Below, one piece after another: positions 4,512 through 32,585 of a DNA stretch of 35,699 nucleotides (position 1 is the first letter of the stretch; each line of letters opens with the position of its first letter). Source of the DNA: Desulfobulbaceae bacterium (GTDB lineage: Bacteria; Desulfobacterota; Desulfobulbia; Desulfobulbales; Desulfobulbaceae); the NCBI GenBank assembly GCA_015484845.1, contig WFUT01000155.1, positions 1 through 35,699 of the forward strand, in the 5' to 3' direction. A program made the translations under genes and the position numbers. The notes under the pieces were generated by a model that did not search any database, was not told the origin of the DNA, and worked only from the letters and a program-made list of their open reading frames with translations.

Positions 4512-5495
4512 TTACTTCTTCCTGTTCACAGGCAGGTTATGCGGATCCTTGTGGCAGGTGAGACAGTTGGGGAACCGCTTGTGCAGGGCCTTGCTGTGCG
4601 GCAGGCCGTGGCACTGCTGGCACTTGGGAATCTGGCCGTGCTTGACGTGACAGGTTGCACAGTGGAGCTCGCTGTGCTTGGTATGGTTGGTCTGCAGGTG
4701 CTTGTACTCGGTGGTATGGCAGGAACCGCAGATCTTGTTGGCCGTGTCCTCCGGGTACTTCTTGATCCTCTTTGCAGAGTGCGGCGAGTGGCAGACCAGG
4801 CAATCCTTGAAGACCATGCCCTCGACATGGGGCTCGTGGCAGTCAAGGCAGCTCGGGATGTAGCCGTGCTTGTCGGCATGGCAGCCCTGGCAGTTGACCT
4901 CGACGTTGTGCTTGGTCGGATACTTGGCAAACTCGGTACCCTCCTTCAGGTGACACACCGCGCAGGAGACCACCGGCTTGCCGTTCTTGCCCTTGATCTT
5001 CTTCTCCACCTGGGCAAAGGGGATGTTCAGCGGCGAATGCGGGTTCTGATGGCACTGCAGGCAGTGGGGAAAGGCCGCGCCGTGCTTGAGCCCGTGGCAG
5101 CGCTGGCACTTGGGCATGATCTTCTCATAGTTCTTCTTGAGCGGATTGTAGACGTGGAACTGCGTATGGCAATTCTTGCAGTCGAACCGGTGCTTGCTCT
5201 TGCTCTTCTTCAGGGCAGTAAACTGGCTGACATGGCAGCGGCCGCAATCAACAGGCTTCAGCGGCGGCGGCGTCTTCTCGTAAAGGGCCACTCCGGCCGG
5301 CTCGGGCACGGCCTTCTTCTCGGCAGCGGCCGCCGGGGCCGCGCTCTTGGTGGTCGTGCCGGCAGAGGCGGTGACCGTCTTGCCGACCTTGGCTTCAGTC
5401 TTCTTGTCCGTGGCCTGCTGGTTGGCACAGGCCACGAACAGGAAGGAAGAGGCCAGAACCGCGATGAACGCCATTCCTTTCGACTTGATCTTCAT
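4512..5495 (-). CDS. Dodecahaem c-type cytochrome, lipoprotein
   Basis: The product is 327 residues with twelve CxxCH haem-attachment motifs: CGRCH, CKNCH, CQRCH, CLQCH, CAVCH, CQGCH, CLDCH, CLVCH, CGSCH, CATCH, CQQCH and CLTCH. The N-terminus is a lipoprotein signal (hydrophobic core then LFVAC), with Ala after the Cys, which fits outer-membrane sorting. About 45 residues rich in Ala, Lys and Thr follow as a tether before the first haem. It is a clear paralogue of the upstream gene, sharing the HGYIPSC, FKDC..CH and KDPHNL-type segments in the same order. The stop codon of that gene is only 23 nt away, so the two are one operon. A likely role is electron transfer across or at the outer membrane, but the partner and terminal acceptor are not visible. 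GGAGG lies about 10 nt before the ATG at 5495. Confidence 0.93.
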   Translation of the reverse strand: MKIKSKGMAFIAVLASSFLFVACANQQATDKKTEAKVGKTVTASAGTTTKSAAPAAAAEKKAVPEPAGVALYEKTPPPLKPVDCGRCHVSQFTALKKSKSKHRFDCKNCHTQFHVYNPLKKNYEKIMPKCQRCHGLKHGAAFPHCLQCHQNPHSPLNIPFAQVEKKIKGKNGKPVVSCAVCHLKEGTEFAKYPTKHNVEVNCQGCHADKHGYIPSCLDCHEPHVEGMVFKDCLVCHSPHSAKRIKKYPEDTANKICGSCHTTEYKHLQTNHTKHSELHCATCHVKHGQIPKCQQCHGLPHSKALHKRFPNCLTCHKDPHNLPVNRKK

Positions 5496-5518
5496 CTCTT
5501 TTTCCCCTCCTAATCCTG

Positions 5519-6322
5519 TTATTTGGTTAAATTATGCGGATCGACATGGCAGGCAAGGCATCCCTTGAAGTTCTTGATCAGGCGCTTGGGATGGGGCACT
5601 CCGTGGCAGTCCTGGCAGGCAGGAATGTAGCCATGCTTCTTCTTGTGGCAGAAGACGCAGTGGAGCTTGGCGTGCTTGGTATGGCCCGACTCCAGCAGCT
5701 TGCGGATTTTGCCGTGGCAGGCGCCGCAGTTCTTGTTGGGGACGTTGGGGCCATAGGCCACGTTGAGCGGCTGGTGCACGCGGTGACAGGAGACACAGTC
5801 CTTGAACGTCTGCCCCTTGCGGTGCGGCTTGTGGCACTTCAGGCAACTGGGGATGTAGCCGTGCTTAAAGTGACAGAAGGAGCAGTCGACCTTGGCATGG
5901 GCGCTGGGGTTCTGGTTGACCTCCTTGACCTGCTCGGCGTGACAGGTCTTGCAGACCGGTTTGACCTTCCTGTTCTTGGGAAAGGTTATCTTCAGGGGAG
6001 TGTGGGGATTGCGGTGGCAGTCGAGGCAGTTTTTCACCTCAAAGTGGGGTTCCCCCTCGTGGCACTTGGAACACTTGGGAATCATCTTGTCCACGGGGGT
6101 CGCCGGCGGATGACCGGCATCGTGACAGTCGAGACATGTTACTTCGGTCCTGTGCTTGCCGCCTGCCTCCTGGTTCTGGTGCACGACCTTGGGATGGCAC
6201 TTCACACAGTCGCTGAGCTGCAACTGCGCGTCAGGAGCCTTCTGCGCGGCGCCGGCGGTTCCCCATGGAGCCATCAGCCCGATGGCCAGCGACAGGGCCG
6301 CGGCAAAGACAAACGTTTTCAT
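5519..6322 (-). CDS. Dodecahaem c-type cytochrome, soluble exported form
   Basis: The product is 267 residues, again with twelve CxxCH motifs (CVKCH, CLDCH, CSKCH, CLDCH, CKTCH, CSFCH, CLKCH, CVSCH, CGACH, CVFCH, CQDCH, CLACH). It has a conventional cleavable signal peptide (core then GTAGAAQ) and no lipobox Cys, so it should be periplasmic or extracellular. Extra His residues between motifs (HGYIPSC, GHTKHAKLHC) can supply distal ligands, as in multihaem cytochrome c3-type chains. The ATG at 6322 has GGAGGG about 7 nt upstream; an in-frame upstream extension to 6382 lacks a signal-peptide-like start. It is first of the two-gene operon. The family is recognisable only as multihaem cytochrome c; a specific role such as extracellular electron transfer is inference. 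Confidence 0.92.
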   Translation of the reverse strand: MKTFVFAAALSLAIGLMAPWGTAGAAQKAPDAQLQLSDCVKCHPKVVHQNQEAGGKHRTEVTCLDCHDAGHPPATPVDKMIPKCSKCHEGEPHFEVKNCLDCHRNPHTPLKITFPKNRKVKPVCKTCHAEQVKEVNQNPSAHAKVDCSFCHFKHGYIPSCLKCHKPHRKGQTFKDCVSCHRVHQPLNVAYGPNVPNKNCGACHGKIRKLLESGHTKHAKLHCVFCHKKKHGYIPACQDCHGVPHPKRLIKNFKGCLACHVDPHNLTK

Positions 6323-6860
6323 AACATATCCCTCCATCTCTCTTGAAAATGTTTCTGACAGTCCCGGGTCGCTCCTTTTCATCTTCCCGGGACGTGGTTT
6401 CTCCCTGCAGGGTATCCATCATGCCGCAACGCCGGCTCCATGCCGCCACCGGGGCGGAAAGCCATGGTGACGGGAGCAGCAAGCCGCCGTCCTTGCGCCG
6501 CGGGCGACCATTTTCACAACCAGCAATGAAAACAGGCAACAGCTCCCCCGGCGCCCTGCGCCATTTTCGGACAAAGGCGCCAACAAAATTTTCCGGCGGA
6601 AAATTCAGCCCTTTCCCATCCGGAACCCGTGCACCTGCCACCGGACGTCACAAAAATATTCTCTATTCAAAACCACCAGTTCCTCAAAGTCAAGAGGCGT
6701 TTGCCCCAACCTTTCTCATTTTCGCGTCAAATCAGCCCCAACCAGGTCTTTTTTTCCTGCCGGCCAATGGCCTTGCCACGGAACGACGTCCCCGGAAGCA
6801 CACTTTCGCCGGTCCCTTTTTCCCCTCTGCCCCCGGGCAGCCCTTCCCTCTCTTTCCTCC
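6323..6860. other. Divergent intergenic stretch upstream of the cytochromes
   Basis: About 540 nt lie between the leftward cytochrome operon and the rightward ilvB promoter. No frame has a convincing start or motif. On the minus strand TTGACT (6688-6693 complement) and TGAATA (6664-6669 complement), 18 nt apart, form a weak candidate promoter for the cytochromes with a leader of more than 300 nt. I would not rely on it without transcript data. Confidence 0.3.
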
Positions 6861-14017: not shown

Positions 14018-14886
14018 ACGAGCTGCTCCAGGCGATCGATCACCATGTCGGGCCGGGTCCCGGCCACCAGGGCGTTGTCCTCGCGCAGTCGCAGCGAGCG
14101 GGCATCGCCGGCAAAGAGAACCGTCCGCCAGCCCACCTGCGCGGCCGGCCAGATATCCTTGAGCATGTCATTCCCCACGTAGAGCACACCCGCCGACGCG
14201 ATCCCCTGCTCCTGCAACCGCCGGTCCAGCCGCCTGAACAGGCCGGGCGAGGGCTTGCCCTCCATCTCCCGGTAAGACCAGAGACTCAGTTCCGGCGCAA
14301 AGCCCAGCGCCGGTGGATCCCTTTCCAGGAAGGCCTCGAAGAGCAGGGGTGTATAAAACTGGGCATTGGAGAGGATCCCCAGCACGAGATCACGGCTGCG
14401 CAGGATACGCAGTGTCTCGGCCAGGCCGGGCATGGGCCAGACCGGGTTGGTCCGGCACTCGTAGGAGATGGCAAGACGCCGCAGGGATCGACCCGGACCG
14501 GGTGGCGCCAGGGCCAGGCCGGCAAGGACCCGGCGCCAGATCGCCAGGATGTCCACCTCCGGGTACTCGATACCCTCCCTGCGCCGCATGGTGTGCTCGC
14601 GGGCGATCTCCCGCCGCAGCAGCTCCACGGCCCGGCCCGACACCGCCGGCTCCGGCACCGGCCAGCCCCCGTCCGCCATGGCCAGGGCAAAGGCCCGCGC
14701 GTCGTCCTCTGCCGCGTCCACGCCCACATCACCGGCTGCCGAGGCCAGCAGCGTGCCATAGATATCAAAGACCACCGCCCGGGCCCGGACCGGGGAGAGC
14801 CTGGTCGGATACCCCGTGGGCACCGGCAGCACGGGCGTGGTCAGGTCCCTGATCAGGGCGACCTGTTCCTGGACAGCTTTGTTCAT
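14002..14886 (-). CDS. HAD-superfamily protein of the osmolyte cluster
   Basis: The 294-residue product has the four HAD motifs: VVFDIYGTLL with nucleophile Asp41, ILSNAQ, the Lys in GKPSPGLF, and VGNDMLKDIWPA. Position +2 after the nucleophile is Tyr instead of the second Asp that HAD phosphatases use as acid/base; DxYGT is the haloacid-dehalogenase pattern. By position it is the best candidate in the cluster for removing phosphate from a glycosyl-3-phosphoglycerate, but the missing Asp argues against assuming this. It is last in a minus-strand unit: its ATG lies one base past the stop codon of the upstream glycosyltransferase, so they are coupled. Its 3' end runs into the convergent cytochrome b gene. 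Confidence 0.85.
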   Translation of the reverse strand: MNKAVQEQVALIRDLTTPVLPVPTGYPTRLSPVRARAVVFDIYGTLLASAAGDVGVDAAEDDARAFALAMADGGWPVPEPAVSGRAVELLRREIAREHTMRRREGIEYPEVDILAIWRRVLAGLALAPPGPGRSLRRLAISYECRTNPVWPMPGLAETLRILRSRDLVLGILSNAQFYTPLLFEAFLERDPPALGFAPELSLWSYREMEGKPSPGLFRRLDRRLQEQGIASAGVLYVGNDMLKDIWPAAQVGWRTVLFAGDARSLRLREDNALVAGTRPDMVIDRLEQLVQILQ

Positions 14887-14887
14887 C

Positions 14888-16342
14888 TCAATCCACCCGC
14901 AGGAGCATCAGCCGTTCCGGGGCAAGAAAATGGTCGAGCAGGATCTCGCCGTCCAGGAAGCCCAGCGGCGTGACCCCGGAGCCGGCCACCTGGTCGTAGA
15001 GACGCCACAGCCGCTCCCCGTAACCCCGCAGGCTGTATTTCTCCTGCAGCAGCCGCCGGTTGGCCTCGATGGCCCGGTCACACTCCTCGGGATCGGGCAG
15101 GGATGCGGGGCGCAGCCGGTGCGCCTGGCCCGGGTCCCGGACAAGCCGCCGCAGGACGATCTCCTGCATCTCCTCGTCGAGCCGTCCGAAATCGACATGC
15201 CCGTCCCTGATCCAGGCCGCAAGGATCCGCTCCAGGCAGTCCGCGCTCTCGCTCCTGCCATAGGCGTCCAGGACCTGCTGCTGGCCGGCCGCGGCCCGGT
15301 CCGCTATCCTGCCCAGGCCGAGCCAGGAGACCGGCACGTCGAGGCGCTCGTAGAGCCAGGGCAGGAGGATGCCCTGGCTGTGGAAATCGGCCGTGATCTC
15401 CGGCAGGTCGCGCCCGCAGACCGGCCGTCCCACCAGCCACGGCTCCAGGAAGGCCAGGCCGAACCCCTCGGTCACGCTGGTGGTGACCAGGCTGCGGGCC
15501 TGGCCAAGGAGTTCCTCGAAACTGCAGCCGCAGGTGGCGGCGATCTCGAACTCCACCGGCAGTTCCAGCTCGGCGGCGATTCGCTTCCACATCTCGTAGC
15601 GGGGCCGTTCCCTGGGATTTTCCGGCCCCAGGGTGGTGGCGAAACGGTGGCCCTCCCCGGCCACGGCGGACCAGAGCAGGAACTCGCCGATGTTCTTGCG
15701 CCGGATGGCCCGGGTGGGATAGAGCCAGAGGGTCCTCGTGTCCGGCCCCGGCAGGGGCGCATCGGCATGGTTGCCAAGCTGCACCGGGTTGGGCAGCAGG
15801 TGCAGGCAGTCGCCGCCGGCGCCGGCATCGCCGAGAAAGGAAAAATCCCTGCCGTTGAGGACAGCATAGTGGACATGGCCGCCAACAGGATAGAGCAGGC
15901 GCGACATCTCCCGCTTGCTGCCGTGGGCCATCTTCTCCAGCATCAGGTGGTAGTTGGCCGGGCGGCCGTCCTCGGCAAAGTCGTGGATGTGCAGGAGCAG
16001 CCGCGCCCCCCGGCCGGCCAGCTCGACCAGGGCGCCGGGCAGGGCCATGTTCTTGCCCAGGCTGTGGTTGTGCACGTGCCAGAGGTCGGGCGGCCCGCCC
16101 AGGGCCTCCCGGGCGGCGCTCTCCATCTGGCGGGCAAGTTCTTCCGGCCCCACCGGCGGCCGCGCCGCCTCGTACTGCAGGCCGGGGATGAGCCGCCACT
16201 CCGAGGGCCAGTCGCCGGCCGGCTCCTGGCCGGTGAGCACGACGATGCCGGTATCCCGGCCGGCCAGGGCGCTGATGGTATGGCCGATGATCCTGGTCAC
16301 ACCGCCCGGCTGCAGGTGGTAATGAACAATGGCAACACGCAT
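14888..16342 (-). CDS. Glycosyltransferase, GT4-like (GT-B fold)
   Basis: The 484-residue cytoplasmic protein begins with an N-terminal GT-B domain (VAIVHYHLQPGGVTRII, with the glycine loop) and continues with DLWHVHNHSLGKN and LLLHIHDFAEDG. The C-domain has LWLYPTRAIRRKNIGEFLLW and SVTEGFGLAFLEPWLVGRPV, the E-x7-E donor-binding pattern of GT4 and related families. The acceptor is unknown; the context (GpgS, a mannose-phosphate cupin, a phosphorylase) suggests a glucosylglycerate-type solute. About 300 nt separate its start codon from gpgS upstream, and that gap is filled by a structured repeat. The ribosome binding site is weak (GAAG, about 6 nt upstream). The long Arg/Glu-rich C-terminal extension is not family-typical. 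Confidence 0.85.
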   Translation of the reverse strand: MRVAIVHYHLQPGGVTRIIGHTISALAGRDTGIVVLTGQEPAGDWPSEWRLIPGLQYEAARPPVGPEELARQMESAAREALGGPPDLWHVHNHSLGKNMALPGALVELAGRGARLLLHIHDFAEDGRPANYHLMLEKMAHGSKREMSRLLYPVGGHVHYAVLNGRDFSFLGDAGAGGDCLHLLPNPVQLGNHADAPLPGPDTRTLWLYPTRAIRRKNIGEFLLWSAVAGEGHRFATTLGPENPRERPRYEMWKRIAAELELPVEFEIAATCGCSFEELLGQARSLVTTSVTEGFGLAFLEPWLVGRPVCGRDLPEITADFHSQGILLPWLYERLDVPVSWLGLGRIADRAAAGQQQVLDAYGRSESADCLERILAAWIRDGHVDFGRLDEEMQEIVLRRLVRDPGQAHRLRPASLPDPEECDRAIEANRRLLQEKYSLRGYGERLWRLYDQVAGSGVTPLGFLDGEILLDHFLAPERLMLLRVD

Positions 16343-16370
16343 GGTATCTTCGTCAACTTGATATTCTGGA

Positions 16371-16616
16371 ACCTAAATCCTGCAATTGGCAATTTTGCCG
16401 GAGATGCGAGGCATCAAGGGCGCAGACGTATACGAATACCTCAATCCCTTGATAACGAAGCAGATTCGGTAAAATTGCCAATCCCTTCGGGCGAGAAAAT
16501 GAAGAAAAAAATCCTTCACCCGATCAGTGAGTCGAAAAAAACGATCACGTTCGTAGAATCCGCTGATACAGCAAAAGAAAATTTTTTTCTTCATTTTCGA
16601 AGTGCAGGGTTTAGGT
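16371..16616. repeat. Structured palindromic repeat, copy 1 (full length, MITE-like)
   Basis: This AT-richer 246-nt element has imperfect 14-bp terminal inverted repeats (16371-16384 with 16603-16616). Inside are a 16-bp stem (16385-16400 with 16467-16482, one mismatch that is G-U in RNA) enclosing an 8-bp stem (16413-16420 with 16446-16453), and a second 18-bp perfect inverted repeat (16495-16512 with 16581-16598). About 120 nt of it recurs at 22617-22751 in the same orientation. It codes for nothing recognisable and fills the gap between gpgS and the next glycosyltransferase, so it should be transcribed. It could be a non-autonomous mobile element or a REP/BIME-like processing or attenuation structure. 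Confidence 0.8.
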
Positions 16617-16651
16617 GGAACAATGGCAGGCTGGGCAGGAGAGGCTGTCGG

Positions 16652-17641
16652 CTAGTGCCCCTGGTCTTCAAGACCGAATTTCCGGCGGTACTCCGGGACC
16701 TCGATCATGGGCGGCCGCTCCTCCTCGTAGATCTCGTGGATGACCTGCTGGTAGCGGTTCTCCTGGGCCAGGAACTGGCGGAGATTGCAGGTCAGCTCAG
16801 GCAGGTCGCTGACAATGCCGCGCGCCTTGAGCCGCTTGAAGAAGGCCCGCATGATGCCAAAGGCCATCTTGCCGAGATCCTGCGTCTCCTGGTGGCGGTG
16901 GATCCGCTGGTCGAGATCGGTCTGGGCAAAGGCCTCCAGGCCGTAGTCGGAGTAGACATCGATGAGGTGCGATGTCTCGACGCCGTAGCCCACCGGGAAG
17001 GAGAGCCGCTCCAGGATCTCGCGCCGCACGGCATACTCGCCCGACAGCGGCTGGATAATGGCGGTGAGCTCGGGAAAGAAGAGGGAGAAGAGCGGCCGCA
17101 CCAGGATCTCGGTCACCCGGCCGCCGCCCGAGGGCCTGATCTTGTCGGACAGGGCCAGGGGCCGGTCATAGAAGGCCTTGACATACCTGATCTCGGGCCG
17201 GTAGATGAGCGGCGCCACCAGGCCGTAGACGAAGCGGGGGTGGATATTCTTGATATCGGCGTCCACGTAGACGATGATATCGCCCCGGAGCTGGTAGATG
17301 GCCTTCCACAGGTTCTCGCCCTTGCCGCGCTTGAACCCCATGGAGGGCAGGATATCGGCCGAGTTGTAGACATCGGCGCCAAAGGAGGCCGCCACCTCCA
17401 GGGTCCGGTCGGTGGAGCCGGAGTCGATGACCGCGATCTCGTCGAGCAGGGCGTAGCGGTCCATGAGTTCGGACTTGAACAGCACCACCTCCTTGCCGAT
17501 GGTCTTCTCCTCGTTGAGGGTGGGGATGCACAGGGAGATGGTGAGCCCCCGCCGTTCCTTTTCCCTGATCAGCCGCAGCAGATCCCAGAACTGTCCGTGG
17601 TGGAAGGTGTTGGACTGCAGCCAGTTGTCAATGTTCAGCAC
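16652..17641 (-). CDS. gpgS: Glucosyl-3-phosphoglycerate synthase (GT81)
   Basis: The 329-residue product transfers glucose from a nucleotide sugar to 3-phosphoglycerate, the committed step of glucosylglycerate-type solute synthesis. Visible GT-A features are ISLCIPTLNEEKTIGKEV, VIDSGSTDRT, GKGENLWKAIYQL, and the metal-binding Asp127-Ala-Asp129 in VYVDADI. PLSGEYAVRRE and GYGVETSHLIDVY are also typical of the GpgS group. I start at GTG 17641 because GGAGG lies 5-6 nt upstream. A TTG at 17656 would also fit the frame but without a ribosome binding site. The start lies 14 nt inside the end of the upstream M20-like gene, so translation is probably coupled. The related mannosyl-3-phosphoglycerate synthase is a less likely identity. 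Confidence 0.88.
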   Translation of the reverse strand: MLNIDNWLQSNTFHHGQFWDLLRLIREKERRGLTISLCIPTLNEEKTIGKEVVLFKSELMDRYALLDEIAVIDSGSTDRTLEVAASFGADVYNSADILPSMGFKRGKGENLWKAIYQLRGDIIVYVDADIKNIHPRFVYGLVAPLIYRPEIRYVKAFYDRPLALSDKIRPSGGGRVTEILVRPLFSLFFPELTAIIQPLSGEYAVRREILERLSFPVGYGVETSHLIDVYSDYGLEAFAQTDLDQRIHRHQETQDLGKMAFGIMRAFFKRLKARGIVSDLPELTCNLRQFLAQENRYQQVIHEIYEEERPPMIEVPEYRRKFGLEDQGH

Positions 17642-18788
17642 GACAGCCTCCGTCAATGGTGAGCAGGATTCCGATCAACTGGGCCACGCCGGTGAGGATG
17701 GGATCGATCTCCACCGACTCGTCGGGATAGTTCACGTTGTCGGCATTGGTCAGGCCGATGCAGACCGCTGGTACCTCCTGCTCCACGTAACCGGAGATCA
17801 CCGGCGAGTAGATGGTGTCCCACGGCTGGATATCCAGGGCCGACATCACCCTCCGGGTCCGCACCACCAGGGGATGGTTGGAGTCGAGCCCGCCGGAACG
17901 GGTCCTGGCGATGACCTCCATGTGGGCCGAGACGCCGGACTGCTGGCCCATGTCGTCGAGGATGGCATCGACCTGTTCCACCAGGTCCACCAGAACCTGG
18001 TCGGAATCGCTGCGGAGCTGGAACTTCAGCTGCGCGTTGCGCGCCGGCACCTTGTAAGACGAACCGCCGCTGATACTGCCCAGGACCAGGGCCGTGTGGC
18101 TCTGGCTCGGCAGGACCAGGGCGTGCAGCCGGTTGACGACCTGGTTGATGACATCCACCGCCGAGAGCTGGCTGTAGCGCCGGTCCACGTGGCAGGAGAT
18201 GACACTGCCCAGGGAGGCCACGGACCGGAAGTGGAGCCGGCCCAGGGAGGCGCCCTCCAGCGAGATGCCGGCATAGAGCGGTCGCTTGCTGTTGGCGAGA
18301 AAGAACCGCAGTCCTTCCTGGTTGCCCTGTTCCAGGCTGCGGGTGGCGCCCATGAGGATCAGGTCGCTGGCCAGGGTGATGCCCAGGCCCTCGAGCAGGG
18401 TGGGCAGGGTGGCCAGCACGGCCAGGCCGAGCGAATCATCGGCCACGCCCGGCCCCCGGACCACGCCGTGGCTCACCATGAAGGTATGATCGACGCCGGC
18501 CGGGAACGGGGTGTCGGCATGGGCGGTGACCAGGATGGCCCGTTCTCCCTCGCTGCCGGGAAGGATGGCGACACCGTTGCCCAGCTCGTCGGTGGAGCAG
18601 TTCTGCAGGCCACACTCCGTGAAGCGCTGCTGGAGAAAGGCGATGCGTCGCTTCTCGCCAAAGGTGGGCGCCGGGATCTCGCCGATCATCACCAAGTTGG
18701 CCAGCAGCATCTCGCGGAAGGGCTCCAGTTCCGCCGGCAGCCGCCGGACCCTGTAGAGAATCTGTTCCAGTTCATCCATGACTGCCAT
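17628..18788 (-). CDS. M20-like metallohydrolase relative, probably inactive or altered site
   Basis: The 386-residue product has the layout of the M20/M25/M40 family: VTAHADTPFP near residue 90, GPGVADDSLGLAVL near 115, a dimerisation-type middle domain, and a C-terminal VPAVCIGL segment. The first metal ligands (His and Asp of HAD, Asp of ADD) remain. The usual GEEG pair is replaced by RSLEQGN, and the late metal-binding His, normally in a HTPDE-type motif, reads NYPDE. It may therefore bind one metal, act on an unusual substrate, or be a non-enzymatic partner. It lies between the cupin (11 nt upstream) and gpgS (14-nt overlap), so its role should concern the same solute. It has no signal peptide and is cytoplasmic. 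Confidence 0.8.
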   Translation of the reverse strand: MAVMDELEQILYRVRRLPAELEPFREMLLANLVMIGEIPAPTFGEKRRIAFLQQRFTECGLQNCSTDELGNGVAILPGSEGERAILVTAHADTPFPAGVDHTFMVSHGVVRGPGVADDSLGLAVLATLPTLLEGLGITLASDLILMGATRSLEQGNQEGLRFFLANSKRPLYAGISLEGASLGRLHFRSVASLGSVISCHVDRRYSQLSAVDVINQVVNRLHALVLPSQSHTALVLGSISGGSSYKVPARNAQLKFQLRSDSDQVLVDLVEQVDAILDDMGQQSGVSAHMEVIARTRSGGLDSNHPLVVRTRRVMSALDIQPWDTIYSPVISGYVEQEVPAVCIGLTNADNVNYPDESVEIDPILTGVAQLIGILLTIDGGCRAEH

Positions 18789-22395: not shown

Positions 22396-22616
22396 GCTTC
22401 CTCCCGGGTTCGGCCCCTGGCCGCGAAACGTAACGCGCAATCAGCCGCCGGACAGGGGGCCGGGCCTGACCGCCATCCCTTTCCTGGTCTTGCACGACCA
22501 CGGGTTCGACAGAACTCCACCAGGTTATGACAAAACGCCTTCCGGCCCGGAGCCGGCAAGGAGGTATCGACAACCCGATAAAAAAATATGCCACCTTCAT
22601 CCCGCAACGGACGCAA

Positions 22617-22751
22617 CCGGCAATTTTGCCGGAGATGCGAGCCATCAGGGACGCAGGTGTAAAAATACTTCAAGCCCTTGATAACCATGCAGGTTCGGTG
22701 AACCTGCCCATCCGAAGGGCGGGAAAATGAAGAAAAAAGTGCAGGATTTAG
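22617..22751. repeat. Structured palindromic repeat, copy 2 (shorter)
   Basis: This copy repeats the first module of the 16371-16616 element and ends with the same right terminus (GTGCAGGATTTAG), but lacks the central inverted-repeat module and the left terminus. The shared stretch runs from GGCAATTTTGCCGGAGATGC through CCCTTGATAAC to GAAAATGAAGAAAAAA with scattered differences. Several differences keep pairing possible, for example GGTTC with GAACC (22692-22704). It lies in the 5' leader of the leftward osmolyte unit, downstream of its proposed promoter, so it should be transcribed as RNA. Confidence 0.75.
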
Positions 22752-22764
22752 ATGTCATTTCCAC

Positions 22765-22792: not shown

Positions 22793-23189
22793 GGCCCATG
22801 CTCCACCGGGGCCGCCCCCATGCGGACCAGGGCGAGCGGTTCAGGGGTGCGGCCAGGCCCGGTACCCTGGTCCGCCGGAACATGGCGCAATGGCAGGCTA
22901 AGGCGGACTCCCCTTGCTGCACCGCCCCGGGATGCAGGCATCAGCGGGCGGTCGGTGTCATTGACAGCTCACCTCCGCGGGACGGACCGGATACCGGCAA
23001 TCAGCCGAATCCGTTGGGGGACAATGATTTTCGGCCGCCAACATACTTTTTGCCGCCCTACCATGCAAGAATCGTTGAACTTCCGGTGAAAATGGATAAT
23101 ACTTATGAAAATAATTCTCTGTCCAAAACGCCTCTTGTTCCTGTTCCCAATTGCCGACAGCGTGGGACAATCGAAGCCAGGATATGCAC
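22793..23189. other. Intergenic stretch upstream of the giant surface protein
   Basis: No gene is supported in these 400 nt. Between 23075 and 23103, TTGAAC followed after 17 nt by AATACT in an AT-rich patch is a weak candidate for the rightward promoter, about 80 nt before the giant gene. A short frame from 23105 overlaps the start of the giant gene in another phase and has no ribosome binding site. Confidence 0.35.
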
Positions 23190-26100
23190 ATGGGCCGAAA
23201 ACGACACCTCCTTCTCGAACAGCTCGAAGACCGGATCTTCCTTGATGCCAATCCCGTTGCCGGCGCCCTGGACGCACCGGGCGTCGACCTGCCCGACCTC
23301 CCGGGCCACGTGGGCGCGCCGGATCCTGTCCCGGCCGACCTGACGGATCTTGCCCACGCGCCGGACCCAGGGCTGGCGGCAACGGCCGACCATCTCACGG
23401 CCGACGCGGCGGCCGGTACTGCCGGCGGCAGCACGTCTCCTGCTGCCAATGATGCCGCGGCAGCGCAACATGCCGGCACGGCAGATTCCGGCACCGCCCC
23501 CCGGGACGGGAACGGGCCCGGTGATGCCGCGGCCGATGGCCACGGAGCCGTCCAGGCAGACGGCGACGCCGGGAGCGACGCCGGGAGCGACGCCGTGTTA
23601 GGGGGACATGAAAGCGGGGCCGACGGCGGCACGGTGGATGGCCACGCAGCCGACGGGACAGAAGCCGGCGCCGACGCCCGCGACCCGGAAAGCGACGGCG
23701 CCGGCACGGCCGGTAGTCATGACACGGCTCTCCCTTCCCCCGCCCCGGCCGCGCCGTCGGCAGCGACCGACACAGCCGGTACCGCGCAGGCCATGGACCC
23801 CATGATCGGCGAGGACTTCAGCTTCACGGTCGACTTTGACAACACCACGACCAGCACGGTGTACGGCCCCTACATCGACATCCTGCTTGACGGCGGCCAG
23901 GACGGTGCCGATGCGGCGGTGGACGGGATCACCTTCCAGGATGCCACCTACCTGGGCGTCCAGGTCCAGTCCCAGGTAATCGACATCACCAGTGACGGCC
24001 AGACCGTGGACCATCCCTGGGCAACGGACAGCAACGGCGATCCCCTGCAGGTCACCGGCATCAACGGCCACACCTTCCGGGCCGGCGACCAGTTCGTCAG
24101 CCTGCGCATGCCCTTTGGCTCCTTTGAGACTGACCAGCCCGCGGCCGAGGTGACCGTGACCGCCCACATGAGTGAAAACGCCGATGTCGGTGCAGGCAAC
24201 GACCTGGCCGTCGAGGTGACCACCGGCGCCATGTACGGCCACGACGCCCTGGACAACCCGGCCACGGACGCGCCCCTGCGCGATATCGCCACATCCTCGC
24301 TCACCTGTGCCCCGGAGGTAATCGCCTACAATGCCGACATCGAGGTCAGCGGCGTGCATGGCGACTGCCAGGTGCAGCACGCCGCGGACCACGATACCCG
24401 CTACCGGGCCGATGATCCCGGCCAGGTCTTTGAAAGCAACCACCAGGAGATCCCCACCGGTCCCAACTATCCCGGCACCTACGTGATCCGGGTCGACATC
24501 GCCGACGGCCAGAGCGTGGACAACCTGGCACTCACCGAGCACCTGCCCGACAACATCGTCTTTCTCGGCAACGTCTCGGTCACCGACAGTGGCGGCAACG
24601 CCCTGGCCCACCACGTGATCCAGAATGGCACCGACCTGCAGATCGGCCTGGACAACGGCATCACCGGTACCGGCAGCACCACGGACGTGACCATCCGCTA
24701 CGACTTCTATGTTCCCGAGCAGACCACTGCCGGCCAGCCGGTCATTGATCCGCAGACCGGCGATGATGCCCACATCGTCAACAACGGCGAGCTGTCCTAT
24801 ACCTGGTCGCCCATTGACAGCAACGATCCCGGCCCGGTCAACGGTGTCATCAACGCCGAGGTGGACCGGGACGGCCACTTCTCGGGTTCTCCTGACATTG
24901 ATGACATCTCGCATGCCCAGTCCCTGGCCATCCAGAAGGACCACAACCTGGCCACCGATACGGGGGCTCCCGGTTACAGCCCGGGCGACACGGTGGACTT
25001 TTCCCTCGACTTCCAGGTCTCGGACTTCTTCTCCTTCGGTGACCATGATCCATCGGACAGTGACTACAGTTTCCGCATCGACGACCTGGTGCCCGACGGT
25101 CTCACCATGAACAACAACGGCACCGACTACCTGGCCTCCATCGATATCTGGCAGAACGGGCACGCCTACCACCTGGACCTGACCAGCACCACCACGGCCG
25201 GTGACATGATGTGGGTCACCACGGATGCGGACAACAACCTCGAGGTCCATTACAACCTGGAGAAGATCTTTGCCACCATGGATCCGGCCAGCGGCGGCAT
25301 CCTCCACGGGGACCTGACCGACGGCAACCAGGATGGCCCGACCCACGGCCGGATCACCTACAGCGCCGATATCGCCCGGGTCTACCACGACGAGAACAAC
25401 GCCGGCGGCAACGGCGGCACGGACAATGACATCGACCAGGGCGACATCCTCTCCGGCGCCCCCGCCATCACCGGTGAAATCTACGCCAACGGCGCCTTTA
25501 CCGGCCAGGCCGAGGGCGACGCCTCCTGCGACACCCTGCATATCGTCACCGGTTCCGTGGACAAGGATATCTACGCGGTCAACGGCCAGACCGGGGTCGG
25601 GAGCACGCCGCACATCTCGCCCGGCGACACGGTGACCTACCGGCTGCACTATGACATGCCGCTCAGCTCCACCGAGGATTTCCACCTGGTGGACTACCTG
25701 CCCCTGCCGATTTTTGACGTCAACGATCCGGACCAGGACGGCACCGCCTCCGGCTGGTCCCAGGTCGCTGACGGCACCCTGCCCGGCACGGGGGAATGGG
25801 CCTTCACGGCCAATGACAGCTACCATACCCTGAACACCACCATGGACAGTGTCGGCGCCGGCACCGGCAACAGCCTGGTCTTTGACTGGGCGCCCTACCA
25901 CGACGCCTCGGGCACCTCGTCCACCGTGGAGATCCTGTTCACGGTCACGGTCTCGGGCGAGCCCTTTGCCGACGGCATGTACCTGACCAACCAGGTCCGG
26001 GCCACGGAACAGGGAACCCCCCTTGCCGACAACACCACGGACGCCATCGTCCAGGTGGTCCTTGACCAGCCCGAGTTGACCATTACCAAGGGCGTGGTGG

Positions 26101-29100
26101 AGACGGACAACGATGCCGCCGCCTTTCCCGGCAACGCCTTTGTGGACAGCTACTTCACCGAGCCGGGCAGCAGCGGCTTCCGGGCCGAGCCGGGCACGGT
26201 GATCTCCACGGACTGGCTGGCAGGACACAACATCAACACCAACCTGAGAGGCATCGATGCCGGCGACCTGGTCACCTTTGCCATCGTGGTACAGAACAGC
26301 GGCCACTCCGGCGCCTTTGACATCCGGCTCACCGACGACATGCCCACCGGCTTTGCCACGCCTGCGTCCGGCCTCAACCTGTCGGTGACCGACGGCGCCG
26401 GCAATGCCCTGGCCCACAGCGGCGACCTGTTCACCGGCCTGGAGCTGACCGATGACGCCGACGGCGCCCTGGCCGCCACTGACCCGGCCTCGGGCGCCGA
26501 CGTCCTGGTCATCACCTATGACCTGGTGGCCACCACCGATGTCGCGCCATTCCAGAACCTGGCCAACACGGCCACCCTGACCAACTATGCCGGCACCGAG
26601 GGCGGCACGGACCACACGGTCACCGACCCCGCGGACAGCGCCCTGGTCACCACGGCAAGCGCCCGGCCGGACAAGGTTCTTGTCTCCACCAACCAGGCCC
26701 ATACCGGCGGCAACGACGTGGCCATCGGCGAGCAGGCAGAGTACGCCATCACCCTCACCATTCCCGAGGGGACCCTCTACAGCGCCCGGCTGACCGATAG
26801 CATGACCGACAACAGCGCCGGCGTCGAGATGGCCATTGTCAGCCTGGACTCCATCACCGCCTCGTCCAGCCTCACGGCAGCAAACGGCAGCTTCACCGAT
26901 ATCCTCAACAACGCGACCATCGACGCCGACGGCGGTGGCTTTACCCTGGACTTCGGCGACCTGGTCAACAGCGATACCGACAACTCGGTGACCGAGACCA
27001 TCACGGTCCACTTCACCGGCGTGGTCCTCAACAACCCGGACCTGGACCGGGGCGAGACCGTCAACGACCAGGCCAGGCTGATCTGGGTGGACGGAAACAG
27101 TATCTCCCATTCCCAGGTCGATTCCGGTCCTGACCTCACCGTGGTTGAGCCGACCCTGCAGGTGAGCAAGACCGTGGACTCGCCGCACCCGGACCAGGAC
27201 GACACCATCACCTTCACCATGGTCATCGAGCATGACGGGTCCAGCGACGCCGATGCCTTCGATGCGCACCTCAGTGACACCATCCCGGCCGGCCTGACCT
27301 ATGTTCCCGGTTCCCTGGCCAACACCGGCGGCCTGGCACCGGACTCGCTTGCCATCAACGGCGATGTCATCTCCGCATCCTGGGGCACCTTTGCCCAGGG
27401 CCAGAGCTCGACCATCACCTTCCAGGCCCACCTGGACACGGCCCAGGCCGGCCAGGACCTGTCCAACACCGCGGACATCGACTGGAGCGGCCTGCCCGGT
27501 GACGTGACCGCGCCCCAGTCCACCCACAACTCCCTCTCCACCGAGCGGACCGGCGACACCGCGGACCCGGGCGGCGTGGCCAACGACTACCGCGCAGCCT
27601 CCACGGCCTCGGTCACGGTCATTGCCGATATTGACAAGCTGGAGCCTGCGCCGGCCACCTACACCATCGGCGAACAGGTCACCTACGACATCCGGCTCAC
27701 CCTGCCCGAAGGCGACACCGGCGGCCTGGTGGTCACCGACGCCCTGCCTGCCGGCATGGTCTATGTCTCGCACCAAGTGGACACCTCATCCTTCGACGGC
27801 ACCCTCCACGCGCCCACCGTGGACAGCACGGCCGGGGACGGCAACGACATCACCTTTGATTTCGGCGATGTCCAGGTCACGGCTGACAATGATCCCGCCA
27901 ACAACGGCTTCACCATCCAGGTGACCGTCCAGGTCCTCGACCAGCCCGGCAATCACCAGGGCGTCACCCTGACCAACCATGCCTCCATGACCTTTGACGA
28001 CCCGGACAACCCGGGCCAGCGACTGACCGACAACGATCCCACCGATCCCACCGTCACCGTGGTCGAACCGCAGATCACCACCCACAAGAGCGTGACCGAC
28101 TCGGCCGACGCGGGCACCGACGCCTCGCCGGGCGAGATCCTGACCTACACGGTGCGCTTCAGCAACACCGGTGATGCCACGGCCTACGAGGTCCATGCCG
28201 ACGACATCCTGCCTGCGGGCGTGCAGTTCAACCCGGGCTCGGCAAGCGCTGTCGACCAGGATGGCGCTGCCGTACCGGTCACGGTGACCGATACCGGCGC
28301 CGGCAACCTGGCCATTGCCGGGGACTGGGACATCGGCGTGGATGACTGGGTCCAGGTCCAGTACACGGTGACCGTCCTGGGCGCGGGCTTCACTGCCGGC
28401 CCGCACGAAAACACCGTGGACGCCGACTGGTCGAGCATGGACGGTAGCCAGCCCGGCGAGAGGCTGTATGCCGACAGCGGCAACTCACCCGTGGACGGTG
28501 ACCAGGATACGGATACAGCCTCGTTCACCGTGGTGACCGATGCATCCCTGGGCGACACGGTCTTTTTTGACGCCGACAACTCCGGCGACTTCTCCAGCGG
28601 CGACGTGGGCATCTCCGGGGTCAACGTCACCATCACCGCGGACGTGGACAACGACGGCACGCCCGAGTTTACCCGCACCGTGACCACCGACGCCGACGGC
28701 GCCTACCTGTTCGACAACCTGGCCGCCTTTGCCAACTACACGGTCAGTGTCGACTATGACGGCTCCGGCGGCAGCGTCCTTGACCTGCAGGCCGCCGGCT
28801 ACCACCAGACCTATGACCTGGACGAGGACGGCAGCCCGGCCCTGGACCATACGGCGCGGGGCATCGGCCTTGCCGCCGGCCAGGACCGCGCCGACGTGGA
28901 TTTCGGCTACACCGGACAGAACGCGGTGGGAGACACCATCTGGTTTGACGTCAATGCCGACGGTGTCCAGGATCCCGGTGAAGACGGCATCGGCGGGCTC
29001 AGCGTCAGCCTGAGTGCGGACATCGACGGCGACGGGATCTTCGAGTATACGGCCACCACGACCACGGACGGGGCCGGTGTCTACGGTTTCGACAACCTGC

Positions 29101-32100
29101 CGGCCGGTGACTTCGTGATCACCGTCACCCCGCCCGGCGGCACCGAGGCAACCTATGACCAGGATTCCGGCACCACGGCTCCCGACAACAGCACCCCCTT
29201 TTCCCTGGCCGCGGACCAGGACCGGGACGATATCGATTTCGGCCTGCGCGGCACCGGCACCATCGGTGACTTCATCTGGTATGACGCCGACGGCAACGGC
29301 GCCCAGAACGAGGGGACCCATGCCGGCATCGGCGGGGTCACCGTGACCCTGGCTGGGGATATCGACGGTGACGGCAGCATCGACTACAGCACCAGCACGA
29401 TCACGGCCGCCGATGGTTCCTACAGCTTTGGCCACCTGCTGGGTGGCGACTACACGGTGCACGTGGACACCGCCTCCCTGCCCGTGGCCATGGTCGCAAG
29501 CGGTGATCCGGACGGGACCCTGGACAACACAGCCACCGTGCACCTGGCCGCCGGCGCAAGCGACCTGGACCAGGACTTCGGCTACACCGGTACCGGTTCC
29601 ATCGGCGACCGGATCTGGTACGACAGGGATGGTGACGGCGTCCAGGACCCGGATGAAAACGGCCTTGCCGGGGTCGGCGTGACCATCACCGCCGATATCG
29701 ACGGTGACGGGATCAACGAGTACAGCCAGGCCATGGTCACGGACGCAAACGGCAACTACACCTTTGACCACCTGGCGGCTGCTGACTACACGGTGCGCGT
29801 CGACACCGCCACCCTGCCCGGCGGCGCGACCCCGACCTATGACCTGGACAGCGCCACCAACCTGCCCGACAACCAGGCCACCTACACCCTGGCCACGGGC
29901 GAGAACATGGACCGGGTCGATTTCGGCTACACCGGTTCCGGCTCCATCGGCGACCTGGTCTGGAACGACAGCAACGGTAACGGCATCCAGGATGCGGGCG
30001 AGCAGGGGTTTGCCGGGGTCACCGTGACCCTGACCGGGGACCTGGATGGTGACGGCGTCGCGGCCGAGACCATCACCAGCACCACGGACGCCGACGGCAA
30101 CTACCGGTTCGACAACCTCTTCCTGGGCGACTACACGGTGAGCATCGATCCGGCCACCCTGCCTGCGGGCACCAGCCCGACCTGGGACTATGACGATCAT
30201 GGCCAGCCCGTGGCCACACCCCACACCGCCGACGTCTCCCTCACCGCGGCCGATCCGGACCGCAGCGACGTGGACTTTGGCTACAACAGCCGCGGCACCA
30301 TCGGCGACACGGTCTGGTACGACATGAACGGCAACGGCCTCCTGGACAGCGGCGAGAGCGGCCTGGCCGGGGTCACGGTGACCCTCTCCGGCGATACCGA
30401 CGGCGACGGCGTCGCCGACGTCACCCGGACCACCACCACCGATGCCGGCGGCAGCTATCTCTTTGACCAGCTCACGGCCGGCGACTACACCATCACCCTG
30501 TCCGGCCTGCCCGGCGGCCTGGCCCAGACCGCTGACCCGGACGGTACCATGGACAACGCCGCCCACCTCACCCTGGCAGATGGCGAAACCAACCTGGACC
30601 AGGACTTCGGCTACACCGGCACCGGTGCCATCGGCGACACGGTCTGGAACGATGCCGACGGCAATGGCAGCCAGGACCCGGGCGAACAGGGACTGGCCGG
30701 GGTCACGGTGACCCTGACCGGTGACCTCAACAACGACGGTATCATCGACACCCTGACCACGGTCACCGACGGCAGCGGCAACTACCACTTTGAGCGGCTG
30801 CCGGAAGGACCCTACACCGTCAGTGTCGACACCACCACCCTGCCGCCCGGCATGGTGGTCACCGCCGACCCGGACGGCGGCAGCGACGCCAGCGCCACCC
30901 TCACCCTGGGGCCGGGCGAGACCAATAATGACCAGGACTTCGGCTTCCGCCAGACCGGCACCATCGGCGACACGGTCTGGTACGACATGGACGGCGACGG
31001 CATCCGGGATCCGGGCGAACCGGGCCTGGCAAACGTCAACCTGACCCTGGTGGGCGACCTGGACAACGACGGCCAGGCCGACGACACCCTGACCACGGTC
31101 ACCGATGCCGACGGCAACTACCACTTTGACCGGCTGCCGGCCGGAACCTATGTCATCAGCGTCGATACCGCCACCCTGCCCGCCGGCATGCGCCAGACCT
31201 TTGACGCCGACGGCACGGCCACCGGCAACAGCTCGACCGTCACCATCGGCGACGGCGGAGTCAACCTGGACCAGGATTTCGGTTATACCGGTACCGGCTC
31301 CATCGGTGACACCGTCTGGTATGACGCCAATGGCAACGGTGGCCAGGATGGCACCGAGCCCGGCATCGCCGGCGTCCGCGTCACCCTGACCGGTGACCTG
31401 GACAACGACGGCCAGGCCGATGACACCATCACCGTGACCACGGACGCCGACGGCACCTACCTCTTTCCCAACCTGCCCGCCGGTACATTCGATATCACCG
31501 TTGACACCACCACCCTGCCCGCCGGCATGGCCGGCAGCGGCGACCCGGACACGGTGATCGACAACGCCACCACCCTGGCCCTGGCCCCGGGCCAGGATAA
31601 CCTGGACCAGGACTTCGGCTATACCGGCACCGGTTCCATCGGCGACCAGTTATGGATCGATGGCAACGGCAACGGCACCATGGACCCGGGCGAACAGGGT
31701 CTTGCCGGGGTGCAGGTCTGCATCGGCGTTGACCTGGACGGCGACGGCCAGGCCGACTACCGCGCCACCACGATCACCGACGCGGACGGCACCTACCTGT
31801 TCGACAACCTGCCGGCCGGCAGCCACACGGTCTGTGTCAACCCCGCCACCCTGCCGCCGGGTATCCGGCCAGGTTTTGACCCGGACGGCAACAGCGACAA
31901 CAGCACCGTGGTCCACCTGGGCGCCGGCGAACAGAACCGGAGCACGGACTTCGGCTACACCTTTCCGCCGGTCCCGCACATCACCCCAGTCGGGCCGACG
32001 CCCCGGCCCGTGCCCCCGACTCCCACCGTGCCGGCGGCCGAAGCCGCCCTGCCGGCCGGTGACAGCCTGCTCATGTACCAACAGTTCGTTGAACAGGATC

Positions 32101-32585
32101 AAGAACCCCTGTTCCAGCCCTTTGCCGAGATCCCGTGGCCGCCGCCCATGGTGCCCATCTCGCCCATGTATACCGGTCATGCCGAGCCCGGCACCACCCT
32201 GTTCCTGACCCTCTTCGATGTCCAGGGCAACGAGATCGGCTACCAGAGCGTGATGGCGGATGCGGCCGGCAACTGGCTGGCAAGTTTTCCCGGTTCCCTG
32301 CTCTACGATGTCCCGCATCACCTCAGGATCGAACAGACCATCTCCAGCTACAACGCCAGCTCGGCCGGCCTGTTCAACCTGCGCACCTACTTCAACCCCG
32401 ACTTCAGTTCCATGGTCTTCTCCACCACGCCGCTCACCGTGGAGACCGTGTTCGCCGAGCTGCCGGCCACGCTCATGGAATCGATCCACGAAAGCAACCT
32501 GTCATCGTTCAACCTGCGCTGGAACGGCTACAGGGAGTACGAGTTCCTGTCACCGTCCATCAACCCCTCCAATCTCAGCCACTAG
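23190..32585 (+). CDS. Giant LEPR-type surface protein with DUF11-like and SdrD-B repeats
   Basis: The 3131-residue product is acidic and built from repeats. Residues 1-22 (GRKRHLLLEQLEDRIFLDA) resemble the LEPR-XLL N-terminal motif of large exported proteins; there is no ordinary signal peptide. Residues about 25-205 are an Ala/Asp/Gly/Thr low-complexity linker. Residues about 208-1784 are a series of DUF11-like beta-sandwich domains with recurring LTDDMPTGF, LSDTIPAGLTYVPGS and VTDALPAGMVYVS segments. Ten SdrD-B-like domains follow (about 1786-2926). After a Pro-rich linker the C-terminus holds an Ig-like domain (MYTGHAEPGTTLFLTLFD, then ADAAGNWLASFPG) and a non-repetitive tail. The start at 23190 has AGGA 7 nt upstream; a TTG at 23151 is open but unsupported. 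The likely role is adhesion or surface coating; export is probably through the TolC/adaptor genes downstream. Confidence 0.9.
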   Translation: MGRKRHLLLEQLEDRIFLDANPVAGALDAPGVDLPDLPGHVGAPDPVPADLTDLAHAPDPGLAATADHLTADAAAGTAGGSTSPAANDAAAAQHAGTADSGTAPRDGNGPGDAAADGHGAVQADGDAGSDAGSDAVLGGHESGADGGTVDGHAADGTEAGADARDPESDGAGTAGSHDTALPSPAPAAPSAATDTAGTAQAMDPMIGEDFSFTVDFDNTTTSTVYGPYIDILLDGGQDGADAAVDGITFQDATYLGVQVQSQVIDITSDGQTVDHPWATDSNGDPLQVTGINGHTFRAGDQFVSLRMPFGSFETDQPAAEVTVTAHMSENADVGAGNDLAVEVTTGAMYGHDALDNPATDAPLRDIATSSLTCAPEVIAYNADIEVSGVHGDCQVQHAADHDTRYRADDPGQVFESNHQEIPTGPNYPGTYVIRVDIADGQSVDNLALTEHLPDNIVFLGNVSVTDSGGNALAHHVIQNGTDLQIGLDNGITGTGSTTDVTIRYDFYVPEQTTAGQPVIDPQTGDDAHIVNNGELSYTWSPIDSNDPGPVNGVINAEVDRDGHFSGSPDIDDISHAQSLAIQKDHNLATDTGAPGYSPGDTVDFSLDFQVSDFFSFGDHDPSDSDYSFRIDDLVPDGLTMNNNGTDYLASIDIWQNGHAYHLDLTSTTTAGDMMWVTTDADNNLEVHYNLEKIFATMDPASGGILHGDLTDGNQDGPTHGRITYSADIARVYHDENNAGGNGGTDNDIDQGDILSGAPAITGEIYANGAFTGQAEGDASCDTLHIVTGSVDKDIYAVNGQTGVGSTPHISPGDTVTYRLHYDMPLSSTEDFHLVDYLPLPIFDVNDPDQDGTASGWSQVADGTLPGTGEWAFTANDSYHTLNTTMDSVGAGTGNSLVFDWAPYHDASGTSSTVEILFTVTVSGEPFADGMYLTNQVRATEQGTPLADNTTDAIVQVVLDQPELTITKGVVETDNDAAAFPGNAFVDSYFTEPGSSGFRAEPGTVISTDWLAGHNINTNLRGIDAGDLVTFAIVVQNSGHSGAFDIRLTDDMPTGFATPASGLNLSVTDGAGNALAHSGDLFTGLELTDDADGALAATDPASGADVLVITYDLVATTDVAPFQNLANTATLTNYAGTEGGTDHTVTDPADSALVTTASARPDKVLVSTNQAHTGGNDVAIGEQAEYAITLTIPEGTLYSARLTDSMTDNSAGVEMAIVSLDSITASSSLTAANGSFTDILNNATIDADGGGFTLDFGDLVNSDTDNSVTETITVHFTGVVLNNPDLDRGETVNDQARLIWVDGNSISHSQVDSGPDLTVVEPTLQVSKTVDSPHPDQDDTITFTMVIEHDGSSDADAFDAHLSDTIPAGLTYVPGSLANTGGLAPDSLAINGDVISASWGTFAQGQSSTITFQAHLDTAQAGQDLSNTADIDWSGLPGDVTAPQSTHNSLSTERTGDTADPGGVANDYRAASTASVTVIADIDKLEPAPATYTIGEQVTYDIRLTLPEGDTGGLVVTDALPAGMVYVSHQVDTSSFDGTLHAPTVDSTAGDGNDITFDFGDVQVTADNDPANNGFTIQVTVQVLDQPGNHQGVTLTNHASMTFDDPDNPGQRLTDNDPTDPTVTVVEPQITTHKSVTDSADAGTDASPGEILTYTVRFSNTGDATAYEVHADDILPAGVQFNPGSASAVDQDGAAVPVTVTDTGAGNLAIAGDWDIGVDDWVQVQYTVTVLGAGFTAGPHENTVDADWSSMDGSQPGERLYADSGNSPVDGDQDTDTASFTVVTDASLGDTVFFDADNSGDFSSGDVGISGVNVTITADVDNDGTPEFTRTVTTDADGAYLFDNLAAFANYTVSVDYDGSGGSVLDLQAAGYHQTYDLDEDGSPALDHTARGIGLAAGQDRADVDFGYTGQNAVGDTIWFDVNADGVQDPGEDGIGGLSVSLSADIDGDGIFEYTATTTTDGAGVYGFDNLPAGDFVITVTPPGGTEATYDQDSGTTAPDNSTPFSLAADQDRDDIDFGLRGTGTIGDFIWYDADGNGAQNEGTHAGIGGVTVTLAGDIDGDGSIDYSTSTITAADGSYSFGHLLGGDYTVHVDTASLPVAMVASGDPDGTLDNTATVHLAAGASDLDQDFGYTGTGSIGDRIWYDRDGDGVQDPDENGLAGVGVTITADIDGDGINEYSQAMVTDANGNYTFDHLAAADYTVRVDTATLPGGATPTYDLDSATNLPDNQATYTLATGENMDRVDFGYTGSGSIGDLVWNDSNGNGIQDAGEQGFAGVTVTLTGDLDGDGVAAETITSTTDADGNYRFDNLFLGDYTVSIDPATLPAGTSPTWDYDDHGQPVATPHTADVSLTAADPDRSDVDFGYNSRGTIGDTVWYDMNGNGLLDSGESGLAGVTVTLSGDTDGDGVADVTRTTTTDAGGSYLFDQLTAGDYTITLSGLPGGLAQTADPDGTMDNAAHLTLADGETNLDQDFGYTGTGAIGDTVWNDADGNGSQDPGEQGLAGVTVTLTGDLNNDGIIDTLTTVTDGSGNYHFERLPEGPYTVSVDTTTLPPGMVVTADPDGGSDASATLTLGPGETNNDQDFGFRQTGTIGDTVWYDMDGDGIRDPGEPGLANVNLTLVGDLDNDGQADDTLTTVTDADGNYHFDRLPAGTYVISVDTATLPAGMRQTFDADGTATGNSSTVTIGDGGVNLDQDFGYTGTGSIGDTVWYDANGNGGQDGTEPGIAGVRVTLTGDLDNDGQADDTITVTTDADGTYLFPNLPAGTFDITVDTTTLPAGMAGSGDPDTVIDNATTLALAPGQDNLDQDFGYTGTGSIGDQLWIDGNGNGTMDPGEQGLAGVQVCIGVDLDGDGQADYRATTITDADGTYLFDNLPAGSHTVCVNPATLPPGIRPGFDPDGNSDNSTVVHLGAGEQNRSTDFGYTFPPVPHITPVGPTPRPVPPTPTVPAAEAALPAGDSLLMYQQFVEQDQEPLFQPFAEIPWPPPMVPISPMYTGHAEPGTTLFLTLFDVQGNEIGYQSVMADAAGNWLASFPGSLLYDVPHHLRIEQTISSYNASSAGLFNLRTYFNPDFSSMVFSTTPLTVETVFAELPATLMESIHESNLSSFNLRWNGYREYEFLSPSINPSNLSH
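23565..23594 (+). repeat. Short tandem repeat in the linker of the giant gene
   Basis: A 12-bp unit GACGCCGGGAGC occurs two and a half times, encoding Asp-Ala-Gly-Ser repeats in the low-complexity linker. It is a possible site of length variation. Confidence 0.75.
28545..31965 (+). repeat. Ten tandem SdrD-B-like domain repeats
   Basis: Ten units of about 340 nt (110-125 residues) follow one another. Each begins with a version of GSIGDTVWYDANGNG, continues with DPGEQGLAGVTVTLTGD and TTDADGNYLFDNLPAGDYTV, and ends in LDQDFGYTGT. Asp/Asn-rich loops (DxDxDG-like) in each unit are typical calcium-binding sites of SdrD B and related domains, which stiffen surface stalks. Units 3-10 are closest to each other, suggesting recent duplication or exchange; unit 1 is the most divergent. 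Confidence 0.9.

Follow-up and report, generated by a model that had tools for sequence, protein, structure and literature searches.

MITEs are usually described as relics of an insertion sequence (IS) that arose by internal deletion and retain a throw-away interior. The bacterial MITEs covered by a review (PMC10969869) are smaller than 300 bp, AT-rich, intergenic and multicopy, possess terminal inverted repeats (TIRs) and a target duplication, and are predicted to form stable stem-loops. The element described here shares all of these properties. Unlike the reviewed MITEs, however, it has an interior whose architecture covariation has preserved in many families of the phylum Desulfobacterota. 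The name IS1380 does not occur in that review. From the ISs of the IS1380 family (NF033539; e.g., ISEcp1 and ISPme1) our element differs in that it carries no transposase gene and has an unrelated interior. The Correia elements (CREE) of Neisseria are likewise MITEs with many copies and a stem-loop transcript. They have different ends and most often duplicate TA (PMC9330008). MITEPye1 of Paracoccus yeei (IS1182-type) is also non-autonomous, shares its ends with an IS and is predicted to form a long stem-loop, but it belongs to a different IS family, is present in 1–3 copies per chromosome and is reported without covariation in the accessible part of its description (PMC11578231). Among the multicopy palindromic sequences of Geobacter metallireducens, one family of 24 is centered on the palindrome GRCGTAGCGCTGCTACGCC and has related sequences in Desulfotalea (PMC2700814, accessible part). 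This palindrome resembles the apical part of the hairpin termed A below, although a relation is unproven, and the same part of that paper describes these sequences without a link to transposons. In the literature searched, the end sequences of our element were absent from any relevant context, and MITEs were not linked with Desulfobulbaceae. What is new in this finding is the conserved fold.

The element was located at positions 16371–16616 of the window, the whole analyzed stretch of 35,699 nucleotides, which represents contig C155 of the home genome G000 (3.38 Mb, 233 contigs, assembly 97% complete). It is A+T-rich in a region of roughly 65% GC, and with 246 bp and no transposase gene it lies within the size range of MITEs (about 30–300 bp). 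The left TIR ACCTAAATCCTGCA (16371–16384, + strand, 14 bp) and the right TIR TGCAGGGTTTAGGT (16603–16616, − strand) differ by one mismatch. Flank comparison of copies revealed the target-site duplication GGA on the left (16368–16370), equal to GGA on the right (16617–16619), neither with an assigned strand. Hairpin A (16385–16482, +) was defined by stem search, folding, the covariance model R1 and cross-genus covariation. Its outer stem (16385–16407 / 16460–16482) spans 23 nt and is 83% complementary; the outer 16 positions all pair, one of them as G-U. The inner stem of 8 bp is formed by ATCAAGGG (16413–16420, +) and CCCTTGAT (16446–16453, +), and an AGAU/AGAU tandem G-A internal loop lies within the hairpin. 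The predicted mini-hairpin CCCTTCGGG (16483–16491, +) follows, and the 20 full elements aligned in A5 show a CC..GG counterpart at the corresponding position. A perfect inverted repeat of 18 bp (16495–16512 / 16581–16598) closes hairpin B (16495–16598, +). The TIRs, the 16-bp and 8-bp stems and the 18-bp repeat had all been proposed in a preliminary description and were recovered at these positions. That description had overlooked the pairing between the two outer ends, which makes the whole MITE a closed multi-branch structure in the order end stem, hairpin A, mini-hairpin, hairpin B, end stem. The earlier characterization as highly folded was borne out by a single-strand folding energy of −100.1 kcal/mol compared to an average of −54.5 for shuffled sequences (sd 4.7; z = −9.8), and none of 200 shuffles was as stable. 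With R1 the + strand scored 121.6 bits and the − strand 42.2 bits, which identifies + as the conserved reading strand. The only long frame spanning the element (14816–17662, +) results from reading two real genes antisense in GC-rich DNA. A second, decayed copy, likewise overlooked before, is situated at about 22593–22753 (+). It represents an A-only form (R1 match at 22616–22718, 75.7 bits) that has lost hairpin B by a deletion between the B arms; its left end is degenerate and its flanks are GCC/GTC.

As stated earlier, the MITE is placed between gpgS and a glycosyltransferase gene. It lies downstream of the former (glucosyl-3-phosphoglycerate synthase, NF010496, 393 bits) and upstream of the latter, both on the − strand, with its conserved strand antisense to this operon. 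No terminator-like site was found. In the relative HyVt-437, whose GpgS is 98% identical to that of the window, the same gene pair is separated by a short spacer without the insert, which represents an empty orthologous site.

Further copies, target-site duplications and compensatory changes between copies had been named as the points on which the earlier transposon proposal would be judged. The home genome contains about 40 near-full copies with 80–98% identity to the consensus, mostly on separate contigs; 40 near-full matches showed 88–100% identity with the copy in the window across the greater part of their length. Several contigs stop about 75–150 bases inside a copy, and the copy number is consequently a lower bound. 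With up to two mismatches allowed, the 14-bp end matched the home genome 280 times (143+137), compared to 3 times (3+0) for a reversed control pattern. An exact 3-bp duplication was observed in 25 of the 34 full copies with both flanks, while 1.2 are expected from mis-paired flanks, and duplications of 4–6 bp were found in none of these 34. No matches to the element were obtained in plasmid and viral collections. On the basis of the matched ends, the 3-bp target duplication, the many copies and the empty site in a relative, positions 16371–16616 can be securely assigned as a complete MITE, i.e., a non-autonomous transposon as originally suspected.

A partner IS was detected in a single-contig relative of the same family (G046). 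This IS of about 1676 bp (1.68 kb) is present in about 27 copies, encodes a transposase matching NF033539 (IS1380, 293 bits) and PF13701, and ends in ACCTAAATCCTGCAATT, identical over 17 bp to the MITE ends. A 3-bp duplication flanked 11 of the 12 IS copies that were read, the same length as for the MITE. Relatives of this IS are carried by two further genomes (G036 and G015). The home assembly is 97% complete, and several of its 233 contigs end within a copy; the only trace of an IS1380 found in it was a relic on contig C32, which combines an IS1380-like left end with an internally deleted transposase fragment. In a genome from another, distant family of the phylum (G169) the MITEs terminate in (A/G)CCCGGATTATGCAGCTC, and the end of a local IS1380 fragment has that same sequence. 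Both have changed to the same new sequence, so that the MITE ends follow those of the partner. The MITE interior has no similarity to the partner IS, and R1 found no match in three partner ISs. IS1380-family elements are usually listed with longer duplications of 4–5 bp, so the 3-bp length, like the failure to find an intact IS1380 in the home assembly, counts against IS1380 mobilization. Nevertheless, the identical ends and the identical duplication length strongly support mobilization of the MITE by an IS1380-family transposase, as judged by inference. Such a transposase, supplied in trans, would recognize ACCTAAATCCTGCAATT and cut the target with a 3-bp stagger. At the present locus the MITE is an insertion into the gpgS operon, and its conserved strand runs antisense to the operon.

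Two further observations concern ISs. A 1825-bp TIR-bounded candidate in the home genome contains two tandem open reading frames, no recognizable transposase and one poor end, and was rejected. Another genome (G041) carries the 246-bp MITE and, at three loci, several IS1380 left ends that are incomplete or decayed and possess the same TIR.

The conservation of the interior was investigated by searching 247 genomes of the phylum with R1. Matches were obtained in 19 genomes from 16 genera. Most of the strong matches belonged to elements that share the layout and have ACCYRRAYNNTGCA-type ends; 3-bp duplications flanked many of these elements. The layout (ends, hairpin A, a CCCGnAGGG mini-hairpin, hairpin B, ends) was found in many families of the phylum. 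Already among close copies of the home genome and its near relatives, 11 of 72 pairs showed double-sided changes, compared to 1.8 in shuffles. The inner stem of hairpin A exhibited such changes in 7 of 8 pairs across about eight genera. When 38 copies were fitted to R1, double-sided changes affected 27 of 34 pairs and amounted to 271 cells, compared to 69 ± 9 after shuffling and no more than 53 after sliding. For 20 whole elements aligned by sequence only, the values were 33 of 50 pairs and 172 cells (42 ± 6 shuffled, at most 26 slid), a result somewhat favored by the fact that the structure was taken from the window copy. The arms of hairpin B have been rewritten in other genera and still pair, matching their own partner to 91% and the partners of other genomes to 59%. 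Furthermore, the unpaired positions of the AGAU/AGAU loop were 95–100% fixed in the 38 diverged copies (columns 84–85: G 100%, A 95%; column 22: A 97%), in which the apical motif of hairpin A persists as well. The proposed test of compensatory changes thus yielded strong covariation between copies of different genera. It is well supported that compensatory changes have maintained the interior fold across the phylum, while certain unpaired motifs have stayed fixed. At the curated threshold the window gave no Rfam match, permissive searches returned only unrelated weak matches, and hairpin A matched no Rfam family. This conserved fold, absent from Rfam, is one that annotators can search for in the phylum.

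In contrast to the usual picture of a dispensable relic, the interior of this MITE is unlike the partner IS, is older than any single burst of copies and has its shape held by compensatory changes. Matching mutations across much of the phylum suggest that the fold itself does something. Given the fold, we regard service to the element, as DNA or transcript, rather than to the gpgS operon as the most likely inference, with chances about even; most likely the fold aids the element's own spread or tolerance. An interior that holds its shape while the ends follow the local transposase offers a testable case for the purpose of a MITE interior. More tentatively, and with odds somewhat against it, the core may function as a folded nucleic acid, either RNA or a hairpin of single-stranded DNA, in which the tandem G-A loop and the apical motif are fixed. 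An ancient non-autonomous transposon lineage would have carried this core throughout the phylum while adapting its own ends to the resident IS1380 transposase. If true, this would define a class of structured-core MITEs with a molecular activity of their own.

Taken as a whole, the locus is very probably a MITE inserted in trans by an IS1380-family transposase, with a phylum-conserved core of two hairpins and a mini-hairpin. Other explanations were weighed against this assignment. That the inverted repeats arose by chance or by simple local duplication is refuted by the folding z-score of −9.8, the 40 copies and the target duplications; no evidence in its favor was found, and its probability is negligible. 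An element of the REP/REPIN type, mobilized by an IS200/IS605-like transposase (RAYT), would also be palindromic, multicopy and intergenic. However, movement of the IS200/IS605 type makes no such target duplication. The 3-bp duplications of a staggered cut refute this reading and, together with the long TIRs, are shared with a DDE element of the IS1380 type, which renders it highly improbable.

Two alternatives concern the reason why the hairpins are kept. They could be retained because the element is co-transcribed with host genes and acts on mRNA processing or stability, like Correia elements. The great stability of the fold, the insertion between co-transcribed genes at this locus and the cleavage of other MITEs by RNase III (PMC10969869) are consistent with such a role. 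Flanking genes also tend to face away: next to 63 copies, 55 gene starts and 25 gene ends face the element (summed counts). The neighboring genes in these counts are codon-score predictions in a GC-rich genome; in the home genome 2 of 34 copies lie inside predicted genes. Against a role in host mRNA, the operon in the window and the conserved strand of its element are read in opposite directions, and in co-directional gaps the predicted genes gave 10 sense and 4 antisense copies (p = 0.18), which indicates no clear strand preference. For both reasons a regulatory role is not claimed, and we consider this explanation unlikely. Slightly less probable still is that template switching between the arms at replication keeps them complementary as a mutational process, without selection on the fold. 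The arms are near-perfect palindromes prone to slippage, and derivatives that have lost a hairpin recur. Arm-to-arm correction would, however, be expected to erase mismatches, and these are kept: the AGAU/AGAU loop and the apical motif in the 38 diverged copies count against pure correction. In part, the covariation could nonetheless be due to such correction rather than to selection.

The decay of the transposon copies was apparent from short versions of the MITE in which one hairpin is missing. In several B-only copies ATTGGCAAT or ATTGCCAAT is joined to the mini-hairpin. The two arm bases are also near-direct repeats, and these junctions are as expected from slippage between them. Remnants of 38–58 bp are still flanked by duplications. 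The copies decay by losing hairpins one by one, and apparently do so through slippage between the short repeats present at the base of a hairpin.

MITEs of other types, about 160–200 bp long, were observed at five loci in other genomes. Their TIRs are the same or nearly so, mostly ACCTAAATCCTGCAGTT. Three of these types gave weak hairpin-A matches of 26–34 bits, and the 160–200 bp types may therefore be single-hairpin relatives. At seven additional loci hairpin-A-like modules were found without detectable MITE ends, one of them (L052) with two adjacent modules; these modules may stand alone as hairpins or belong to elements whose ends are unrelated. Elsewhere in the window, a 3144-aa open frame (23151–32585, +) contains many repeat blocks of the GDTVWYDxNGDGxQDxGE type and resembles surface proteins with SdrD/Cna-B-like repeats. 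Two adjacent proteins encoded at 4512–6382 (−) are rich in CxxCH-type motifs and resemble multihaem cytochromes.
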